In this document: positions 2,981 through 59,855 of the stretch, one piece after another
Numbering within the stretch: position 1 is the stretch's first letter
Layout: each line of letters opens with the position of its first letter
Assembly: GCF_008124625.1 (NCBI RefSeq)
Contig: NZ_VNHM01000003.1
Location: 62,001 to 126,000 of the forward strand
Direction of reading: 5' to 3'
DNA length: 64,000 nucleotides
Source of the DNA: Desulfallas thermosapovorans DSM 6562
Lineage (GTDB): Bacteria > Bacillota > Desulfotomaculia > Desulfotomaculales > Desulfallaceae
Made by a program: the position numbers and the translations under genes
Notes under the pieces: model-generated
What the model was told of the DNA's origin: nothing
The model's input: the letters and a program-made list of their open reading frames with translations, nothing else
Database searches by the model: none

Positions 2981-3745
2981 CTATTCTTTCAACAAATTAA
3001 AGACAAAGGTGGAAAACTGCCAGCCAGCTTCGCCAGCTAAAGCCTTCTCATAAAATTGCACTTCTCCACTGGTGCTAACCAGAATAACTGTTTGAAATTG
3101 GGTGCCATAATTGCCGGTATCCACGAATATAGAGGACATCGCTCTCTCCAATTCAAGGGTAAGACCGGTGCGGGGTAATTCTTCATCGGGAGGCACTTCG
3201 GTATCATCCAGGATATTAAATAGCTGCTGGACTGAAAAATCAGCAGCTAAAATGCTGATTAATCGCTCCTTGGCTTTTTTAACTTTAAACCAGGGGGTGT
3301 CCAGCAAAGCGTTGCTTAATCCATACACTCCCGGCTGGATAGAGCGGATTTGGTTTTCTATGTTGGAATAATAATAAAGCCCCGCCTGTGTACCCACTAC
3401 TAAATTAAAAGGATCATATGCTTTTCGCCGGCTCTGGATACCCTGCAGATATTTTACTGGTGCAATGGGGTTTATTAAAAAATCCCGGGTTAAGGTGCCT
3501 CGCGAAATAGCAGCTTTTCTAGGTATGGATAAATCACGATAGTTGGTGAGGAAAGCCATGCGCCCTTCTTTGGTTATACCGGTCCAGGTTCCGCCTTTGG
3601 CTAAATCGACTCCAGCCAAAATGTTCGGGTATGCCGGCCAAAAATGAGCCGCCCTGGACGGCCTGTCCTTGAATTCATCTCTATTACCTAGAAAAATAAA
3701 ATCATATTTGGGATGAAATTTATATGCCATTAGCATAGTACACAT
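2981..3745 (-). CDS. NRDE family protein (TANGO2-like)
   Basis: The 254-residue product begins MCTMLMAYKF, keeping the conserved N-terminal Cys2, followed by LGNRDEFKDRPS, the signature that names the NRDE family. GGTWTGITKEGRMAFLTNYRD follows the family pattern. The fold is the Ntn-hydrolase type, with Cys2 as the candidate nucleophile after Met removal. The biological substrate is unknown; the eukaryotic homologue TANGO2 is linked to Golgi/mitochondrial and haem or lipid homeostasis. The start has a clear GAGGTG site. It is monocistronic, separated from glcD upstream by a terminator. Confidence 0.85.
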   Translation of the reverse strand: MCTMLMAYKFHPKYDFIFLGNRDEFKDRPSRAAHFWPAYPNILAGVDLAKGGTWTGITKEGRMAFLTNYRDLSIPRKAAISRGTLTRDFLINPIAPVKYLQGIQSRRKAYDPFNLVVGTQAGLYYYSNIENQIRSIQPGVYGLSNALLDTPWFKVKKAKERLISILAADFSVQQLFNILDDTEVPPDEELPRTGLTLELERAMSSIFVDTGNYGTQFQTVILVSTSGEVQFYEKALAGEAGWQFSTFVFNLLKE

Positions 3746-3906
3746 GCTTTTTCACCTCAGCGATATTATAACACTTGTGCAATATCGTAACACCAAATGT
3801 GCACATGGGGTATTTAAGCTGGCCGGCCCACTACACAAAGACCTTTTTGATTCCAATAGACAATACCCTTTTTTGTTATTTTATGATTTAAACCCTAATT
3901 ACCCAA

Positions 3907-3964: not shown

Positions 3965-5380
3965 TTAACACAATTCCACAAGTTTGTCAGGGTTAAGTAT
4001 TAAATTAGGATCCAATGCTTTTTTTATTGAAGCTATCATTCTCAGCTCAACCGGATTCATAAACTTGGCCATGGCCTTTTTCCTCTTGGCACCAATGCCG
4101 TGCTCACCGGATAATTTACCCTCGCAGGCATAAGTGACGAAATAAATTTCTTCAAGCACTTTTTCCTTAACTTCATACCAGGTTGCATCATCCAGGTTTT
4201 CTTTCAGTAAGGTTGCGTGCACATTACCGTCGCCCGCGTGACCGAAACAGGGAATTTTAATGGTATACTTTTTAGAAATTTGCTCTATTGCCTCCAGTAA
4301 TTTGGGGATATTGCTTATCGGGACAACGATATCCTCCATACAATATACCGGGCTTGTAACGCGCAGTGCTTCCGCCAGAACTCTCCTTGGTTTCCAGATT
4401 TTATCCTGGTTGGCCTTATCATTACCTATAAATACTTCAAGGCCGCCGTTTTCATAGCAAATACCAGCGATATTTTCGCAATCAGACTCGAGTTGGGCAT
4501 CGCTGTAAGCTTCAACTTCTATAATAATATAAGCACCTGCGTCGTTGTATGGAAGCTTTCGATCAAGGAATGATTCAGCTGACTTGATACACAGATTGTC
4601 CATAAATTCAATGGAAGTGGGGATTACTCCTACAGTGGTCATTATCTTGGGCACAACATTAATGGCAGTTTGCATGTCCGCGAAAGGAACCAGCAAAACC
4701 GAATTATACTTGGGTTTAGGCAAGAGTTTAAGATAAATTTTAGTGACCACGCCCAGTGTACCTTCAGAGCCTACCATTAAATGTACTAAATCATAGCCGG
4801 TTACGTCTTTGACACACTTACCGCCCAGAGTAATTATTTCCCCTGTAGCCAGAACAACTTCAAGACCATATATATGCTTGCTCGTTGTTCCATATTTTAC
4901 TGCCTTATTGCCCCCGGCATTGGTGGCCACGTTTCCCCCGATAAAGGAACTGTCGGCGCTGCAGGGATCACCCGCATACAGATAGCCTTCCTCCTGGGCT
5001 TTCCTTTGCACGTCCCCCGTGGTAACTCCGGGTTCAACAACCATAAACAGGTTTTCGTTATCTATCTCCAATATGCGGTTCATATTTTCGAGGGACAGTA
5101 CAATACCACCAATCATGGGAACCGCCCCTGCTGCAAGGCCCGTACCTGCTCCCCGGGGTGTTACGGGAACAAGTTCACGGTTGGCAAGTTTAAGCACTTC
5201 CGATACTTGCTGTGCATTATCAGGTTTAACAACTACTTCAGGTAAGTGCTTCCACTCGGCTTCGGGAACTTCATCACCGGCATATGTTTCTAATTTTTCT
5301 TGCTCTACAATTACATTACGTGAACCAACAATACTTTGCAAATTTGCTATCATATCTTCGGTCACTTTGTTATAATTCAT
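3965..5380 (-). CDS. glcD: FAD-linked D-lactate/glycolate dehydrogenase (GlcD family)
   Basis: The 471-residue flavoprotein has a PCMH-type FAD-binding domain (PRGAGTGLAAGAVP near residue 74, SSFIGGNVATNAGGNKAVKYG near 142). Its C-terminal FAD-oxidase domain carries CFGHAGDGNVHATLL near 382 and SGEHGIGAKRKKAM near 425. It oxidises a 2-hydroxy acid (D-lactate or glycolate) to the 2-oxo acid and passes electrons to a partner, probably the LutB-LutA iron-sulfur protein encoded upstream. The ATG follows AAGGAGG. It is separated from the lldR gene by 106 bp holding an operator-like palindrome, so it may have its own promoter. D-lactate is the likelier substrate because of the permease in the cluster; glycolate cannot be excluded. 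Confidence 0.85.
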   Translation of the reverse strand: MNYNKVTEDMIANLQSIVGSRNVIVEQEKLETYAGDEVPEAEWKHLPEVVVKPDNAQQVSEVLKLANRELVPVTPRGAGTGLAAGAVPMIGGIVLSLENMNRILEIDNENLFMVVEPGVTTGDVQRKAQEEGYLYAGDPCSADSSFIGGNVATNAGGNKAVKYGTTSKHIYGLEVVLATGEIITLGGKCVKDVTGYDLVHLMVGSEGTLGVVTKIYLKLLPKPKYNSVLLVPFADMQTAINVVPKIMTTVGVIPTSIEFMDNLCIKSAESFLDRKLPYNDAGAYIIIEVEAYSDAQLESDCENIAGICYENGGLEVFIGNDKANQDKIWKPRRVLAEALRVTSPVYCMEDIVVPISNIPKLLEAIEQISKKYTIKIPCFGHAGDGNVHATLLKENLDDATWYEVKEKVLEEIYFVTYACEGKLSGEHGIGAKRKKAMAKFMNPVELRMIASIKKALDPNLILNPDKLVELC

Positions 5381-18355: not shown

Positions 18356-19552
18356 TTACACCCTGTTATTGGAGCAGGTCGCCCGCTCTTTTTTTGCTTT
18401 ATCCTTAAGTACCAGATAGGATATCAGCGCCAGCACCCCCGGTATAGCTGACAGCTGGTACATAACAGCATAGCTGGTGGCCTGGGCAACTGCCCCCCAC
18501 ATTACCGCCCCCAGCCCGATGCCTAAATCGAAGGCGGAAAAGAAGGTGCTATTGGCTGCGCCACGCCGTGCGGGAATTACATCCTTCACGGCCAAAGCCT
18601 GCAGGCTGGGCATCATGCCGCCAAATCCAACCCCGTAAAGAACGCCCGCCAGCAGAAACATCCATAATTGCTGGGCCTGGGACAAAACCAACATCGCGGC
18701 AATAATCAGTACCATCCCGGGCAGTACCGCCACATCAAAGCCCCTGCGGTCGGCTAAAATACCGGAAAGTGGCCGGGTAACCGTAAGGGCCAGTGCGTAA
18801 ACGGTAAAAAAGATACCGATATTGGTAATACCCTGCTGGCCCGCATATATAGCTATGAATGAAACCACCGCCCCATAGGTGGTGGCAACCAACAGTAACG
18901 ACACAGAGGGTCTAATGGCCTTTGGTTCAATCAAAGCCTTGACTCCCCGCCCGCTCTGGCCTTTATTTTCCACCCGGGGATACCGGATAAGCACCGCCAG
19001 TACCAGGGCTATAAAAGACAAAATGGTAGATATATAAAACAGGGTGGGAAAACCCGCGCGGTTGAGGATATAAAGCCCGATCACCGGTGCTATGGCCATG
19101 GATATTGTGCTGGTGAGGCCAAAATACCCCATGCCCTCACCCAATCTTTTACGTGGGATTAAATCGGTGGCCACCGTTCCCGCTGCGGTGCTAATGATAC
19201 CCCAGCCAAAGCCATGTAGAAACCTGAAGGCCAGTAAGGCGATTATGCTAAAGGCCCAGTTATACGCCAGAACCGATAACATGAAAACGGCCAGGCCCAG
19301 CAGTAAAGGACCCCGCCGGCCGCTGGAATCTAATACCTGGCCTACAAAGGGGCGCACCAGTAAGGCTGAAACTGTAAAAACTCCTATAATCATGCCCATT
19401 GCCGTCTCCTGGCCGCCCAAATGTTTAGCATAAACGGGCAGAGTGGGTAAAAGCATCTGGAAGGATACAAAGATAAACAAGTTAACCAAAAAGATGATTA
19501 CAAAGTCCCTTGTCCATAAAGCGTTGGTTGAATGTTCCTCAATGGCGTGCAA
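18356..19552 (-). CDS. MFS transporter
   Basis: The 398-residue protein has 12 membrane segments, with the motif GQVLDSSGRRGPLLLG after helix 2 (near residue 70) and GILADRRGFDVAVLPG between helices 8 and 9. The N- and C-halves are both complete. It belongs to the general drug/metabolite exporter branch; the substrate is unknown. A 133-bp piece of this gene (18812-18944) is present again, inverted, at 21347-21479. It is transcribed alone; the 286 bp before it hold the terminator of the sulfite reductase gene. Confidence 0.85.
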   Translation of the reverse strand: MHAIEEHSTNALWTRDFVIIFLVNLFIFVSFQMLLPTLPVYAKHLGGQETAMGMIIGVFTVSALLVRPFVGQVLDSSGRRGPLLLGLAVFMLSVLAYNWAFSIIALLAFRFLHGFGWGIISTAAGTVATDLIPRKRLGEGMGYFGLTSTISMAIAPVIGLYILNRAGFPTLFYISTILSFIALVLAVLIRYPRVENKGQSGRGVKALIEPKAIRPSVSLLLVATTYGAVVSFIAIYAGQQGITNIGIFFTVYALALTVTRPLSGILADRRGFDVAVLPGMVLIIAAMLVLSQAQQLWMFLLAGVLYGVGFGGMMPSLQALAVKDVIPARRGAANSTFFSAFDLGIGLGAVMWGAVAQATSYAVMYQLSAIPGVLALISYLVLKDKAKKERATCSNNRV

Positions 19553-19681
19553 ATAAATATTCCCCTTTCATTATGAAAACTTGCAATCACAAAATTATAT
19601 GGCAAATGAATATAAAAATCAATCTGTTCACACCACTAATGTATGATAACCTTCTGTCCCAGTTGGAGATATATTGAATTG

Positions 19682-19711
19682 AGGGCCTCCATTCTACCGA
19701 ATGGAGGCCCT
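19682..19711 (-). terminator. Hairpin terminator of the sulfite reductase gene
   Basis: AGGGCCTCCATT (19682-19693) pairs perfectly with AATGGAGGCCCT (19700-19711). It lies downstream of the minus-strand reductase gene. The T-tract is weak. A related stem (21591-21624) terminates hydA. Confidence 0.6.
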
Positions 19712-19838
19712 GTGTTCCTTAAGCCGTTATTCTATGTCTTATGTAGTCTATTTAGACAGTTTTTGCGGCGTAGCAAAAACAGCGTCTGTTTCCTGGCAAA
19801 CACATACCTCTTATGCTTCATTAATGCTTAGGTTAATT

Positions 19839-20462
19839 TTACCTTTTAAATTTCTCAATACCTATTCTATTTATTACAGAAGCTAATCTTTCCTTGGGTT
19901 TAGCATTATCCTTATATATCGCGATAATGTGCTTGGTATAATTGATTAGCTCATCCGGAGCTACATCCTTATCCAACAATTCGCCTAAAATTTGATTGCC
20001 GCCTTTACCGCCAATATATAATTTATATCCGTTCTTTGTTCCTATAAAACCTATATCATTACATCTAGCCTCCATACAATTTCGGGGACAACCACTGATG
20101 GCTATCTTAACTGCATTCGGCATCTCCCGGCCAGAAAACTCTTTATCTACATTTAGACCGTCATTTAATGCATTTTGCAATGCAAACTCACATAAATTGC
20201 CGGGACACGTTTTTACATTGCGTACAGTTGGTCCCACAGGGGCTATACCCAAACCGACAGAAGCCAGTTCTTGCTTAACTTGCTCCACTTTATCTTCCGC
20301 CGTTAAAATTACGATATGCTCACCAGTTGTGAATTTGGCCAGACCGGCACCTTCATTTACCAATTGTGCAATTTTAAGTAATTGTTCTCCATTAACTAGC
20401 CCGGCAGGTGTGGCAGGTATAACGGCAACTGCACCATTTGTTTGTTTTACAATGCCTTCCAT
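19839..20462 (-). CDS. Small siroheme/4Fe-4S nitrite/sulfite reductase (assimilatory-type)
   Basis: The 207-residue protein has an N-terminal ferredoxin-like half domain (GAGLAKFTTGEHIVI, residues about 38-52) and the siroheme-[4Fe-4S] half with TCPGNLCEFA (near 104) and SGCPRNCMEARCND (near 142). The pattern C-x4-C and C-x3-C matches the low-molecular-weight sulfite reductases of Desulfovibrio and clostridial sulfate reducers. It reduces sulfite (or nitrite) in the cytoplasm with electrons from an unknown donor. The ATG follows AAGGAGG with ideal spacing. It is monocistronic. Two short pieces of a diverged copy of its 3' half lie at 21291-21346 and 21480-21572. Confidence 0.85.
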   Translation of the reverse strand: MEGIVKQTNGAVAVIPATPAGLVNGEQLLKIAQLVNEGAGLAKFTTGEHIVILTAEDKVEQVKQELASVGLGIAPVGPTVRNVKTCPGNLCEFALQNALNDGLNVDKEFSGREMPNAVKIAISGCPRNCMEARCNDIGFIGTKNGYKLYIGGKGGNQILGELLDKDVAPDELINYTKHIIAIYKDNAKPKERLASVINRIGIEKFKR

Positions 20463-20563
20463 TTATTATATCCTCCTTAATTATGTAGTATTAGTTACGA
20501 AAGATAGGATATAATAAAAAATTACTTCTGCCTATGACGTACGTCACATTTAATTTTTTTATA

Positions 20564-21412
20564 TCAACATTTGGCTCCTTCCTTAACTTTCTCTAACGTT
20601 GCAGCGATTTCCCTTTGCTGGGCATTAATTTCCTCATTTTGGGCTGTTAGTTCCTCCTGCTGTGCTGTAAGTTGCAGGTTTTGTTCTTTTAAACTTTCTC
20701 TTTCAAAGTTTATTGTCTGAACCATGTCATTATATGCAGCAGCTAAAATCCCTACTTCATTTTTTTTAAAGTCACCGTTAACGATATTGTAATTACCGCC
20801 GGTGTTATTTTTAATAGCTTCGATAATTTTATTTATGGGCCGTATATAATTTTGCCAGTAAGCATAACTCAAATATAAAGACAGGGATGCCGCCAGAAAA
20901 GGTATTATTAAAAGGAATGACCTGATATTGTTGGTAGTATCCATTAAATGATGCATTGAGTTCAGGGAGGAATCATGCAATTTATTTTCTAAGTTACCCA
21001 GAGCTAACTGCAACTTGTTGTGGTCAATATGACCCGGTCCCCCCGGCAGCAAGTCGTTTTGTGAGGTATAATCTCCTGCTATTACTTTTTCTGCAATTTC
21101 TTCATTTTTTTCAATTTCATTACCAACCAACTGCACCACCTCACTCACCTCAGGTGCTAAATGGGGGTGTGTGCGGGACAGATCTTCCAGTTTAATAATT
21201 CCATTTTGGATATTAGATATATAATCGTGCGCCTGGGTTAGATATAACTGATTACCGCTGATAATAAAGTCCTTAATTGCATTTTCATTGATATAATTGA
21301 TTAACTCACCCGGAGCTACATCCTTATCCAGCAATTCGCCTAAAATAGTCAAGTCTTTGATTGAACCAAAGGCCATTAGGCCCTCTGTGTCGTTACTGTT
21401 GGTTGCCACCAC
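20564..21412 (-). pseudogene. Truncated sensor protein (transmembrane, HAMP-like, coiled coil)
   Basis: The open frame runs 282 residues, but only about residues 42-282 look like one protein: an extracytoplasmic helical domain, one membrane helix (FLLIIPFLAASLSLYLSYAY, near 168), a HAMP-like segment (RPINKIIEAIKN...NEVGILAAAYNDMV) and a coiled coil (QQEELTAQNEEINAQQ). The first membrane helix and any kinase, cyclase or methyl-accepting output domain are missing. Residues 1-17 are read antisense through an MFS fragment, and GELLDKDVAPGELINY comes from a sulfite reductase fragment. It is therefore the middle of a histidine kinase or chemoreceptor gene, cut at both ends and attached to mosaic DNA. 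The coiled coil ends GAKC at the stop. Confidence 0.7.
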
Positions 21413-21575
21413 CTATGGGGCGGTGGTTTCATTCATAGCTATATATGCGGGCCAGCAGGGTATAACCAATATAGGTATACATATTATTACGGTATACAAA
21501 GAAAATGCCTACCCCAAGGAAAGATTAGCTTCTGTAATAAATAAGGTAGGTATTGAGAAATTTAAAAGATAAAAT
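21291..21575. repeat. Mosaic of sulfite reductase and MFS gene fragments in alternating orientation
   Basis: Three segments are joined without spacers. 21291-21346 matches 19937-19991 (part of the sulfite reductase gene, same orientation, about 3-4 differences). 21347-21479 matches 18812-18944 of the MFS gene in inverted orientation with about 5 differences in 133 bp. 21480-21572 matches the sulfite reductase 3' end (19842-19935) in inverted orientation and is more diverged. Together they create a plus-strand frame (21297-21572) whose middle is MFS peptide and whose end is NKVGIEKFKR-stop, as in the reductase. This is not a functional gene. Confidence 0.9.
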
Positions 21576-21590
21576 CAACCCTTACATCCC

Positions 21591-21624
21591 AAAAGGTCCC
21601 CATTCTTTTGAATGGAGACCTTTT
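21591..21624 (-). terminator. Intrinsic terminator of the hydrogenase operon
   Basis: AAAAGGTCCCCATTC (21591-21605) pairs with GAATGGAGACCTTTT (21610-21624) with one mismatch, and lies 27 bp after the hydA stop. Confidence 0.8.
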
Positions 21625-21650
21625 TGGTAATGGTATCTACATATGAATGT

Positions 21651-23372
21651 TTAATATTTGCTGCGGGCGGTGTAGCTGGTGTGCAACAGTGCATGGGATT
21701 TATGGCCCAGGGGTTCGCCCAAGAATTCCTTGTACAGAGCTTGTACCGCCGGGTTGTCGTGGGATTTACGCATGGGCATGGCCAGGTCTGCCCGGTATAT
21801 GCCCGCCGATCTTTTCTCCCTGATTTCTTTGTTGGTGGGGATGGGCTGGCCGCCGCCGCCAATGCAGCCGCCGGGGCAACACATAATCTCGATAAAGTGG
21901 TATTGCTCGCCGGCAACCACCCTGTCCAGTATTTCCCTGGCGTTGCCCAGGCCATGAGCCACGGCTACTTTCAGGGTAGTGCCTTTGAGGTCCACTGCGG
22001 CTTCCTTGACTCCCTCAAGGCCCCTTACTTCATGTAAATCCAGGGAGGGCAGGGCCTCGCCGGTAACCAGCTCGTAAGCGGTGCGCAGAGCGGCTTCCAT
22101 TACGCCGCCGGTGGAACCGAAGATTACCCCGGCGCCGGTGGAAATGCCCAGCGGGTCGTCATAATTTTCCTCCGGCAGTACGCTAAAGTCAATGCCGGCC
22201 TCTTTTAGCATTTTACCCAGTTCCCGGGTAGTGAGGGCCACGTCCACATCCTGGTAACCGCTGTCCTGCATTTCTTCCCGGCCTGCTTCAAATTTTTTGG
22301 CGGTACAGGGCATAATAGAGACCACGAAAATATTGGCCGGGTCAATACCCGCTTTTTCAGCATAATATGTTTTGGCCAGAGCCCCGAACATCTGCTGGGG
22401 TGATTTGCAGGTGGACAGGTGGGGCAGCATATCCGGGTAAAAATGTTCAATGAATTTAATCCAGCCCGGGCTGCAGGAGGTGATTAAGGGCAGGGTGCCA
22501 CCCTGGTTCAGGCGTTTAATTAATTCGCTGCCTTCCTCCATAATGGTCAAATCTGCGGTGAAATCGGTGTCGAATACTTTATCAAAGCCCAGCCTGCGCA
22601 GTGCCGCCACCAGTTGCCCGGTGACCACGCTGCCGGGCTCCAGGCCGAACATTTCGCCTATGCTCACCCGCACGGCGGGGGCAGTTTGCACCACTACGTG
22701 TTTATTGGGATCTGCCAGGGCGGCCCACACTTGGGCGGTCTGGTCCTTCTCATGGATGGCCGCAGTGGGACAGACCAGGGCGCACTGGCCACAGTTGACA
22801 CAGGCCGCGCTGCCCAGGGGATCCAAGAAGGCCGGGGCAACGATGGTATTGAAACCCCGCTCCTGGGGTGCAATGGCGTTGACCTGCTGCACTTTTTCGC
22901 ACACGCTGACACAGCGCCGGCAGAGGATGCACTTGCGCGGGTCCCGCACCAGGGAAGGACTGGACAGGTCGGGCTCGTAGGGGGATACTTCCCCGGCAAA
23001 GCGCAGCTCGGTGATGCCCAGTTCCGCAGCCAGTTGCTGCAATTCGCAGTTGGTGCTGCGGGGGCAGGACAGGCACTCCTGGGGGTGATTGGACATGATC
23101 AGCTCCAGGTTGAGCTTGCGGGCGTGACGCACTGCCGGGGTATTGGTGCGCACCACCATGCCCTCGGCAACCGGGGTGACGCAGGAGGCCTGGAGCGTAC
23201 GCGCGCCCTGCACCTCCACCAGGCAGATGCGGCAGGCACCCACTTCGTTGATTTCTTCCAGGTAGCACAGGGTGGGTATTTTAATACCCGCTTGTTTGGC
23301 GGCCTCCAGCACCGAAGTGCCGGCCTGGGCCTGAACCTGGACTCCGTCTATGGTTAAATTTACAGCTGCCAT
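21651..23372 (-). CDS. hydA: [FeFe] hydrogenase catalytic subunit HydA
   Basis: The 573-residue protein starts with a [2Fe-2S] domain (CRICLVEVQGARTLQASC), then a His/Cys-ligated 4Fe-4S motif (HPQECLSCPRSTNC). Two further 4Fe-4S motifs follow (CILCRRCVSVC, CVNCGQCALVCP). The H-cluster domain has all three signatures: TSCSPGWIKF (L1, near 300), MPCTAKKFEA (L2, near 355) and MCCPGGCIGGGGQP (L3, near 497). This is the catalytic subunit of a trimeric HydABC enzyme that couples H2 to NAD(H) and ferredoxin. It is the last gene of the operon, 18 bp after hydB. The C-terminal 50 residues form the small-subunit-like tail normally seen in fused enzymes. Confidence 0.95.
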   Translation of the reverse strand: MAAVNLTIDGVQVQAQAGTSVLEAAKQAGIKIPTLCYLEEINEVGACRICLVEVQGARTLQASCVTPVAEGMVVRTNTPAVRHARKLNLELIMSNHPQECLSCPRSTNCELQQLAAELGITELRFAGEVSPYEPDLSSPSLVRDPRKCILCRRCVSVCEKVQQVNAIAPQERGFNTIVAPAFLDPLGSAACVNCGQCALVCPTAAIHEKDQTAQVWAALADPNKHVVVQTAPAVRVSIGEMFGLEPGSVVTGQLVAALRRLGFDKVFDTDFTADLTIMEEGSELIKRLNQGGTLPLITSCSPGWIKFIEHFYPDMLPHLSTCKSPQQMFGALAKTYYAEKAGIDPANIFVVSIMPCTAKKFEAGREEMQDSGYQDVDVALTTRELGKMLKEAGIDFSVLPEENYDDPLGISTGAGVIFGSTGGVMEAALRTAYELVTGEALPSLDLHEVRGLEGVKEAAVDLKGTTLKVAVAHGLGNAREILDRVVAGEQYHFIEIMCCPGGCIGGGGQPIPTNKEIREKRSAGIYRADLAMPMRKSHDNPAVQALYKEFLGEPLGHKSHALLHTSYTARSKY

Positions 23373-27691: not shown

Positions 27692-28829
27692 TTAATTTAC
27701 AACTATTTCAAAAGATGGTATTAAGTCGTTATAATGTTGATATCCTATTAATCCATTGTGTTGTAACCTTCCTAAAAGTATAAATGGGGCTATACCAATC
27801 CCAAGGGAATAATTTATTATCTGCCTTTTATCCCTATAATTGTATTTATCAATAAAAACTCTATACTGCTCTTCCGAAATTAAATAATTACTAGCTAAAT
27901 CGTCGGCCTCATTTTCATAACTAATGTGGATCCTATTGTCCGAGTGATTAATTAAATGTGCCAGTTCGTGGAAGAAGGTAAACCAAAATACATCTGCCCG
28001 TTTTCCTTTCACACTTAACGCAAGTATCGCCTTGTTCTTTCTCCATATTGTTGCCCCGCATATATAAGTTCTTGGGAGATAAGGAACTAAAACCAAGGCA
28101 ACACCACATTCGGCACATAGTCTTTTCATTTCTGGATAAAATTCAGCCGGGTTCTTCAATGTCAATTTTCTAAAAGTCGGCACATAGTCTTTTCATTTCT
28201 GGATAAAATTCAGCCGGGTTCTTCAATGTCAATTTTCTAAAAGTAGGAATAAGATTTTCTAGCTTTCTTTTATTGTATTTATCCACTTCCACCTTTAGCC
28301 CTTCCAATTCTGCCTTTCTAAGCCAAGCCAATATCCCATAGTCAGATGTTTCCCTTACCTGTTTGTGTATTCTAAAAGCCACGTCATATGAGTTTTTTAT
28401 GGAAGAAAGCTCGGCAACACCAAAAAAACTTCTGCAATTAAGAACTCTCTCTATCCTATTCCTAGTTGCCTTTACCCATTTAAATTCACTCATTTCTTTG
28501 TATGGTATCTTCTTTAAAATTTCCAAATCTAACTCTAATTTTATTTCCTCTTGCTCTTCTAATCTAGCTTTATTTAATTGATAATTAGTCTCCAAATTCA
28601 TCCAAAATTGGGCACTAGGTCCTATAACCCTTTCTAATTTCAAAGCTGTTTCATAGGTAATGGGAGCATTACCATTAATAATGTTGCTTAGATGTTTTGG
28701 TGTTATATCTAACCTGGCAGCTAATTCCCTTTGACTCATTCCTAAAAAGATCATATTTTCTTTGATTGTCTCCCCTGGAGGAATTGCAACGCTTGGCATA
28801 AATTGAGCATTATCTTTTTTGTTTACCAT
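27692..28829 (-). pseudogene. HigA-type antitoxin with ImmA/IrrE peptidase domain, split by a tandem duplication
   Basis: Frame one (28829-28170) encodes an XRE helix-turn-helix of the HigA kind (IPPGETIKENMIFLGMSQRE, LSNIINGNAPIT) and a linker. Frame two (28183-27692) encodes an ImmA/IrrE metallopeptidase domain with zinc motif FFHELAHLINH. Both contain PTFRKLTLKNPAEFYPEMKR because 67 bp are duplicated exactly (28111-28244). Sixty-seven is not a multiple of three, so the second copy shifts the frame. Deleting one copy gives a single protein of about 356 residues. Reconstructed, it is a HigA-like antitoxin fused to a peptidase, next to HigB. As it stands, the helix-turn-helix part is made with a short foreign tail and the peptidase may be made from GTG 28183. 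Confidence 0.85.
28111..28244. repeat. Exact 67-bp tandem duplication
   Basis: Copies 28111-28177 and 28178-28244 are identical base for base (both begin CGGCACATAGTC and end TCTAAAAGT). It disrupts the antitoxin-peptidase gene. Such tandem repeats can collapse by slippage or recombination, so the event may be recent and reversible. Confidence 0.97.
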
Positions 28830-34887: not shown

Positions 34888-35066
34888 TAAACAAAGTTGC
34901 CCAATGGGCGCGGAATAATTCTTATCTCTATATTTTATCGCGGGCTTTTACGTTTAGGTTTTGACAATTACGGCGCTGCCATGCAAATCGCAAAGGGGAA
35001 CAACAAAAATATTATTCTCCCTGCAATAACGGTCCACCGCCTTGCCTGCACCATAAAACTGTGCAT
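34888..35066 (-). pseudogene. Orphan 3' end of a TylF-like methyltransferase gene, copy a
   Basis: On the minus strand it encodes QFYGAGKAVDRYCRENNIF, then VVPLCDLHGSAVIVKT-stop (stop at 34954-34956). This is nearly identical to the last 35 residues of the methyltransferase encoded at 40646-41491, and similarity continues about 65 bp past the stop. The rest of the gene is absent. Confidence 0.85.
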
Positions 35067-36745: not shown

Positions 36746-36799
36746 GTAAGCGTCAATAAACCCCACCTATCGAGAAAGGTGGGGTTTATTGACGCTTAC
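36746..36799. repeat. 23-bp perfect inverted repeat
   Basis: GTAAGCGTCAATAAACCCC continuing to 36768 pairs without mismatch with 36777-36799, around an 8-nt loop. The inner stem AATAAACCCCACCT also occurs at 27.45 kb. It is located between the copper-amine-oxidase-like gene and the PIN remnant and could serve as a terminator in either direction, although the T-run is poor. Confidence 0.8.
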
Positions 36800-39525: not shown

Positions 39526-39589
39526 ATTTACAGTCTTCGATATTTTCTTGGAAAATCCTTCATGGGGTGGGAAATTTTTTGGATTTCTA

Positions 39590-39719
39590 TATTAGCAGGC
39601 TTTTACGTTTCAGCTTTTGACAATTACAGCGCTGCCATTCAAATCGCAAAGGAGAACAACAAAAATATTATTCTCCCTGCAATAACGGTCCACCGCCCTG
39701 CCTGCACCATAAAACTGTA
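39590..39719 (-). pseudogene. Orphan 3' end of a TylF-like methyltransferase gene, copy b
   Basis: The minus strand encodes YGAGRAVDRYCRENNIFVVL, then LCDLNGSAVIVKS-stop (stop at 39610-39612), a diverged copy of the end of the methyltransferase at 40646-41491. It is more diverged than copy a. The rest of the gap 39446-39834 shows only the terminator. Confidence 0.8.
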
Positions 39720-40456: not shown

Positions 40457-40645
40457 TGGGATTCACTCCTTTCATTAAATGAAAAAGAATAATAATTTTT
40501 TTAGTTATACTACAATATATTATACCATTTGACAGTTTACTGTAGCACATAAGCCCATTATCCAAAAGGGAAATTTTAATAAACAAAGTAGTCCAATGAA
40601 CCAGAATAGTTCTTATCCTTATATTTTATCGCGGGCTTTTACGTT

Positions 40646-41491
40646 TTAAGTTTTGACAATTACGGCGCTGCCATGCAAATCGCAAAGGGGAACAACAAAA
40701 ATATTATTCTCCCTGCAATAACGGTCCACCGCCTTACCTGCACCGGAAAACTGTGCACTATTATAATCATGAATAATAATGTACCCGCCCTTGGTCACCC
40801 GGGGGTGAAAGTATTTCAAGCCCTCATACGTGGGCTGGTACAAATCTGCATCCAGGCTTACCAGTGCAAATTCTTCCACCAGGCCTTCCGCAGTATTTGG
40901 AAAGTACCCTTTCTTTATGATGGCCTGTTCCGGAAAAGGCAGCATGCTGCAAACCATTTCCACGCTGGTATCGCTGAACTTTCCTGTTTTAGCACGGGAA
41001 TATTCATTTTCACTTTCAATTTTTATATCCCGCTCGTCAAAGCCTTCAAAGGTATCAAACAAATATATTTTTCTGTCAGGGAATATCCTGTTCATTTCTG
41101 CCGCGAACTTACCCTGAAATACTCCCAGTTCCGCCAGGGCTCCTTCAATATTACGATTTTTGATCTCTTTCGCTATAAGCCTTAAAACTGCAAGCCTGAT
41201 ATCAAACTGTTCCCGAAATTCGGTAATGCTGGTGATCCGGCAGTTGATTGCAAGATTTATTAACTGCTCCCTTACCTGGAGACAGGCTTCTTTATTAAGA
41301 ATCGCTATGTACACACAATCAGGTTGTATCTCCTTGAGCCTCTCTACGTTAACAACAGGTATGCCCTCAACCATAGTTCCATGCAATTTCTTGTTATTAT
41401 CACAGAATGCTACAACTTGCACATCAGAACCCAGGAGATGGCGCAACATTTTGCCTCCCTGGCCTGCACCCCAAATTACTGTCTTGTTCAT
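40646..41491 (-). CDS. TylF/MycF-type methyltransferase with N-terminal Rossmann domain
   Basis: The 281-residue protein has an N-terminal nucleotide-binding-like domain (VIWGAGQGGKMLRHLLGSDV) of the kind found on sugar-modifying enzymes, followed by a TylF-like AdoMet methyltransferase (GALAELGVFQGKFAAEMN near 133; LFDTFEGFDERD; LVSLDADLYQPTYEGLKYF; GGYIIIHDYNS). It probably methylates a sugar or small molecule, perhaps for surface glycans. The ATG follows AGAAGGAG. Its 3' end and about 65 bp beyond are repeated twice nearby, at 34.9 and 39.6 kb. Confidence 0.8.
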   Translation of the reverse strand: MNKTVIWGAGQGGKMLRHLLGSDVQVVAFCDNNKKLHGTMVEGIPVVNVERLKEIQPDCVYIAILNKEACLQVREQLINLAINCRITSITEFREQFDIRLAVLRLIAKEIKNRNIEGALAELGVFQGKFAAEMNRIFPDRKIYLFDTFEGFDERDIKIESENEYSRAKTGKFSDTSVEMVCSMLPFPEQAIIKKGYFPNTAEGLVEEFALVSLDADLYQPTYEGLKYFHPRVTKGGYIIIHDYNSAQFSGAGKAVDRYCRENNIFVVPLCDLHGSAVIVKT

Positions 41492-59794: not shown

Positions 59795-59855
59795 GGTGCC
59801 AGGTGTTCCCGGGGTTGAAAGATTTAATCTTTCAACCCCGGGAACACCTGGCACC
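59795..59855. repeat. 61-bp perfect palindrome (30-bp arms)
   Basis: GGTGCCAGGTGTTCCCGGGG continues to GAAAGATT (59824), one central T, then the exact reverse complement to 59855. There is no T-run after either arm, so it is not a typical terminator. It sits in the 341-bp gap between the MaoC-like and DUF134 genes, directly next to dispersed repeat copy B (59756-59803). Nothing else was seen in this gap. Confidence 0.95.

Follow-up and report, generated by a model that had tools for sequence, protein, structure and literature searches.

A mosaic of three abutting pieces of two neighbouring genes was found between a sensor-like ORF and the 3' end of an [FeFe]-hydrogenase gene, both on the minus strand, at 21288-21580 of the window, i.e. 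the whole stretch of 64,000 nucleotides that was analysed (G000:C3:62001-126000, from a genome of 2.96 Mb in 48 contigs). The pieces lie in the order A, C, B; A and B come from a gene with nitrite/sulfite reductase domains and C comes from an MFS transporter gene (Table 1). The reading that we consider best, and hold with moderate confidence, is that the mosaic is the scar of an old illegitimate recombination in which an inverted second copy of the reductase gene, since lost, was cut and rejoined. In a wider sense, we are rather confident that the mosaic is an illegitimate-recombination scar of either kind (end joining or template switching) and functionless.

Results

Structure of the mosaic

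The three pieces were delimited by BLAST of the mosaic against the window. This confirmed the three-piece structure described in a first-pass annotation made from the letters alone, whose limits of 21291-21575 were correct to within 5 bases, and which was right about the inverted orientation of the MFS piece and one base too long in giving it 133 bp. When the mosaic was compared with the whole genome at an E cut-off of 0.001, four places were obtained, namely the mosaic itself (E 1.2e-151) and the donor stretches of C (2.6e-58), B (2.1e-26) and A (8.7e-19). All donors are located at most 2.7 kb away, on one side and in mixed orientation. Piece B includes, in inverted orientation, the reductase stop codon and 8 bases past it. 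Base 21479 is a mismatch to the present reductase gene and a match to the relative G005, and was counted to piece B. Piece C is 88% identical to the MFS gene of the relative G006.

Table 1. Coordinates of the mosaic, its donors and the adjoining features (window positions).
Feature	Position	Strand	Description
Piece A	21288-21346	+	Reductase 19933-19991, direct; antisense to the gene on the plus strand; 55/59 identical (93%)
Piece C	21347-21478	+	MFS 18944-18813, inverted, sense strand now plus; 128/132 identical (97%)
Piece B	21479-21580	+	Reductase 3' end 19932-19831, inverted; 86/101 identical (85%) over 21480-21580
37-base divergent stretch	19896-19932 and 21479-21515		In the reductase gene and in piece B, respectively
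Donor 1, reductase	19839-20462	-	207-aa protein with nitrite/sulfite reductase domains; PF01077 E 1.3e-31, PF03460 E 5.3e-07
Donor 2, MFS transporter	18356-19552	-	398 aa; PF07690 E 1.3e-50
Sensor-like ORF	20564-21287	-	Weak CHASE3 and HAMP matches, both below the Pfam cut-off; membrane helix and coiled coil by eye
Chimeric ORF	21297-21572	+	91 aa; read antisense across A, and in the genes' own frames across the MFS residues and the reductase C-terminus
Hairpin terminator behind B	21588-21627		Probable fourth piece; stem core matches that behind the reductase gene
Reductase terminator hairpin	19684-19709		Counterpart of 21595-21620, 20/26 identical
[FeFe]-hydrogenase gene	21651-23372	-	NCBIfam NF040763

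Break point and joins

Pieces A and B meet in the donor reductase gene at 19932|19933 with a gap of 0 and at most 4 bases, the end of A being firm to 4 bases only (last mismatch at 21291). With random placement of two such pieces, a gap of 0 was obtained in 0.3% of the trials and a gap of at most 4 in 2.6%. The two reductase pieces are thus adjacent in the gene and opposite in orientation, as had been noticed at first pass, and judged from this arrangement they look like a single contiguous stretch that was cut once and of which one half was flipped.

Microhomology was assessed at the two internal joins, A|C and C|B, and was 0 bp in both directions. The description of the junctions as blunt was thereby borne out at the two internal joins, with base 21479 counted to piece B on the basis of G005. 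Blunt internal joins together with the lack of any missing base between A and B fit religation of cut ends, and two blunt joins are too few to tell end joining from template switching.

The hairpin behind piece B

A hairpin terminator follows piece B, and its stem core is like that of the terminator behind the reductase gene. The pattern CCATTC-N3-8-GAATGG occurs at only two places in the whole genome (2.96 Mb), behind the reductase gene and behind B; a reversed control pattern gave 3 places (per strand) as against 2 for the real pattern, so the count is not above the control and only the location is informative. Since the two arms of a palindrome are not independent, the evidential weight was placed on one arm: a single 11-base stem arm matches at 9 of 11 positions, with a chance of about 1e-4 per terminator compared. 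The spacer between stop codon and hairpin is 22 bases behind B versus 129 in the present reductase gene, and no such hairpin was found in the stretch examined downstream of the reductase genes of G005 and G027. In the most economical interpretation, piece B and the hairpin may be what is left, at its 3' end, of a second reductase copy that once lay on the plus strand; the unlike spacers and the result for G005 and G027 speak against this. The hairpin could also serve the convergent hydrogenase gene.

Age and unevenness of the divergence

Between the pieces and their donors there are 23 differences over 292 sites, or 24 with base 21479 included. The differences were polarised with G005 for the reductase pieces (88% at the amino acid level) and G006 for the MFS piece (91%). 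This was done for the 21 of the 24 differences whose columns aligned with the relative, positions 21291, 21569 and 21576 being left out. The change was on the mosaic side at 11/21 sites (A 1, C 2, B 8) and in the present genes at 10/21 (A 2, C 2, B 6). At these 10 sites it is the mosaic, and not the present gene, that has the base of the outgroup, a pattern to which chimeric reads could not give rise. The earlier statements that the event is not fresh and that an assembly artefact is unlikely are both supported by this two-sided distribution.

Of the 11 changes assigned to the mosaic, 7 fall on third codon positions (one-sided p = 0.039, a weak test), a weak hint that the copy was still a coding sequence during part of its divergence.

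The divergence is unevenly distributed. It had been put at 4-5% or more; the measured values are 3% for the MFS piece and 7% and 15% for the reductase pieces. Within piece B, 11 of the 37 bases adjoining the break differ from the present gene as compared to 3 of the next 52 (p = 0.003, with the boundary picked post hoc). Among the present gene, G005 and G027 the same 37 bases show 9, 14 and 10 differences, i.e. in this stretch the mosaic is about as distant from the present gene as are orthologues of other species, and changes have occurred on both copies (6 and 5). When all sites are used, divergence is higher in the reductase pieces (19/160) than in the MFS piece (4/132; p = 0.008), and when the 37 bases are removed the difference is not significant (8/120 versus 4/132, p = 0.24). 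Uneven divergence would be produced by a patch from another allele or by gene conversion that homogenised the rest, neither of which amounts to a firm explanation.

The sensor ORF and the chimeric ORF

The sensor ORF's own 5' end stops at the mosaic, and the listed start of the ORF (21412) falls inside piece C. Its CHASE3 match (E 0.00046) starts at position 26 of the 138 positions of the profile, at residue 43, while the join is located at residue 41-42. This sub-threshold match, which starts just past the join, is the evidence that the left join probably led to replacement or loss of the sensor gene's 5' end. A search for sensor orthologues was negative: among the best 7 candidates per genome at 1e-12, one other of 397 genomes of the phylum gave a match, of 29% identity and covering residues 89-234 only. 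Apart from itself, family hits of the sensor were at 19-31% identity.

Both fusions created by the rearrangement are in frame, the MFS-reductase tail on the plus strand and piece A with the sensor on the minus strand. The chimeric ORF of 91 aa is probably not a gene. No relative of it was found in scans of a genome-contig and a viral-contig collection. Promoter support was rejected, as 3 promoter-like sites were found in 20450-21700 compared to 5.1 expected from shuffled sequences, which is no excess. A known RNA family was likewise rejected, with 0 Rfam matches in the window at the gathering score. The mosaic is likely to have no function of its own, and none is supported by the analysis.

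Search in related genomes

The mosaic was not found in 112 other genomes, among the best 6 candidates per genome. The scans of the two contig collections also gave no relative of it; these negatives are weak, as the collections may lack the records closest to the genome of the window. A comparison with sister strains had been proposed as a way to find an intact second reductase copy, and no strain with such a copy was found among the relatives searched or in the collection scans. In the stretches compared, other genes than here adjoin the orthologues of the reductase in G005 and G027 and of the MFS transporter in G006. With the hydrogenase as query, the other six genomes of the genus gave only 65-71% identity over stretches of more than 200 bases. 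A 22-base exact match in G013 lies in no reductase reading frame and was taken as chance.

Ku is encoded in all seven genomes of the genus. In G000 the Ku match (C1:203746-204285) and an ATP-dependent-ligase domain (PF01068, C1:202904-203461), both above cut-off, are separated by 284 bases.

Other partial-gene copies in the contig

A search for similar mosaics, also proposed at first pass, was run in the window's contig and was positive. When contig C3 was compared with itself over its full length, 17 repeat pairs within 10 kb were obtained; with one exception (69% identity, near 163 kb) they lie in the first 104 kb. A filter (identity of 80% or more, length of 40 bp or more, less than 12 kb between copies) retained 13 pairs in C3, three of which are the present mosaic. 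In control stretches of 240 kb each, it retained 0 pairs in contig C1, 5 in G005 and 13 in G006. Based on a crude gene map, at least one copy touches an ORF in 10/13 pairs in C3 (7 besides the mosaic), 3/5 in G005 and 6/13 in G006. Contig C3 is richer than C1 and its excess over the relatives is modest; given that each control is one arbitrary stretch, this is a lead and not a rate.

Several of the other pairs in C3 look like gene pieces that were copied into intergenic DNA or next to it, donor and copy being told apart from the ORFs. A second mosaic of neighbouring pieces is seen at C3:3325-3875, composed of 3325-3371, 3404-3561 (79%, which fails the filter) and 3645-3875. Its first two stretches are directly repeated at 4704-4750 and 4840-4998, and the third is an inverted copy (231 bp, 90%) of a topoisomerase gene's 3' end at 354-584 and also provides an amidohydrolase ORF with its C-terminus. 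C3:41961-42033 repeats 73 bp (97%) from the 3' part of a G6PD gene that lies 8.5 kb away, and 44 bases further on the 3' end of a sulfatase gene is copied over about 520 bp (93%; C3:42078-42592); the G6PD ORF is without most of the N-terminal domain in that frame. A 61-bp copy (95%) of a molybdopterin oxidoreductase gene is located at the 3' end of a sodium:solute symporter gene (C3:21933-21993).

Within the window, a 71-bp tandem duplication (98.6%, period 67) is present at 28110-28247, at the junction of two minus-strand ORFs that by eye resemble a helix-turn-helix antitoxin-like part and a metallopeptidase-like part. As the period is not a multiple of 3, this may be a recent frameshift that split one gene. 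Three direct copies (89-92%) of a segment of 136-179 bp are found at 34888-35065, 39583-39718 and 40580-40757, one of which enters a minus-strand ORF. Long palindromes are present at 36746-36799 (93% over 54 bases) and 59795-59855 (98% over 61).

Discussion

The course of events that we infer for the favoured reading is as follows. At an earlier stage, at least the 3' end of the reductase gene and its terminator would have been present a second time, in inverted orientation and convergent to the hydrogenase gene. This copy would have been cut between the bases matching 19932 and 19933, and its inner part (A) rejoined in the opposite orientation together with the 132-bp MFS piece (C), the cut ends being religated by end joining. 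The resulting order would be sensor, flipped A, C, B and terminator, and the left join would probably have taken away the 5' end of the sensor gene. An extra step beyond duplication is needed because a plain inverted duplication puts the MFS piece behind the terminator and not inside the reductase. A reductase copy that is older than the MFS piece would fit the all-site difference in divergence (19/160 versus 4/132, p = 0.008), and this fit is lost without the 37 bases.

Replication template switching usually leaves microhomology. Serial template switching within one replication event (MMBIR/FoSTeS-like), with no second copy at any time, is a serious possibility against which we lean. In that case the nascent strand would have moved from the sensor locus to 19933-19991, from there to 18944-18813 on the other strand, next to 19932-19831 and finally back, copying each of the three stretches in turn. 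Such events are characterised by nearby donors, mixed orientation and clustered switches, features that the mosaic shares with them and with short-range template switching: the donors are all within 2.7 kb and on one side. The similar divergence of reductase and MFS pieces outside the 37 bases also fits one event. The mosaic differs from these events in that the two testable joins have no microhomology and the donor tracts abut; a back-to-back start of two tracts at one donor point is not predicted by template switching, the like terminator behind B demands either a further switch or a coincidence, and the significant all-site difference speaks against a single event. Both a lost second copy and template switching had been put forward at first pass; the abutting ends of A and B and the likeness of the hairpins speak for the former. 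A small-scale 'shatter and rejoin', in which about 1.2 kb of DNA was cut and end-joined in scrambled order and orientation with no base lost at the shared cut, and in which the first 104 kb of the contig would be a hot region for such events with at least three other sites where parts of nearby genes are copied, appears unlikely.

A functional chimeric ORF or antisense transcript, for instance one silencing the reductase and MFS mRNAs, would profit from the in-frame fusions and from the fact that a minus-strand transcript would be complementary over 132 nt to the mRNA of the MFS gene and over about 100 nt to the 3' end of the reductase mRNA. The lack of a promoter excess, the lack of an Rfam match and the absence of the mosaic from the best candidates of the 112 other genomes and from both collection scans make this very improbable. 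A site-specific invertible segment might be suspected since a segment of about 191 bp (A and C) appears inverted with no bases lost at one end. Among inverted repeats in 19500-21750 (seed 8, length at least 12), none that fits the segment ends is listed, and the pair that comes closest (21279-21290 / 21497-21508) would include in the inversion 18 bases of B, and these are not inverted. The pieces come from the interior of genes, and no copy other than the donors is among the places listed by the genome search; with neither fitting terminal repeats nor other copies listed, a mobile element or invertase was rejected as extremely improbable. An artefact of assembly or library preparation, with chimeric reads joining two genes, is compatible with a 48-contig assembly. 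Chimeric reads would equal their donors, however, and the mosaic differs from them at 23/292 sites and sides with the outgroup at 10 of the 21 polarised differences, so we rejected this explanation as extremely improbable too.

Tandem inversion duplication could create an inverted second reductase copy. An inverted chromosome duplication at an interrupted palindrome, as described for E. coli lacking SbcCD and RecA (PMC3315005), could likewise create the assumed copy; compared with that duplication, the mosaic keeps only about 160 bp of the reductase gene, cut and re-ordered, and has no identified palindrome centre. In yeast, a spacer can be inverted via template switching between short inverted repeats (PMC8604942), whereas no fitting pair of at least 12 bases is listed at 21288/21478.

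As regards the joining step, bacterial NHEJ (Ku and an ATP-dependent ligase) resembles the present case in blunt joins without homology, in arbitrary order and orientation of fragments, and in that ku and a neighbouring ligase-domain gene are present in the genome; of the event itself only the product, the mosaic, is seen. One paper states that NHEJ is almost absent in prokaryotes except in a few species, and ascribes much small-scale bacterial diversity to illegitimate recombination (PMC2884548). The mosaic is like the small variable segments treated there in being short, not tied to mobile elements and attributable to illegitimate recombination, and unlike them in that each piece of 21288-21580 can be traced to a gene nearby. 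It is unusual in detail and of a general kind that is already known.

Taken alone, the mosaic is a minor rearrangement, probably a neutral one, by which a single sensor gene may have been disrupted. It is also a well-resolved fossil of illegitimate recombination in a Ku-encoding bacterium, with known donors and a readable cut point in the donor. If further scars in the genome share the blunt joins and abutting ends, they would provide a test of end joining versus template switching in bacterial intergenic DNA.
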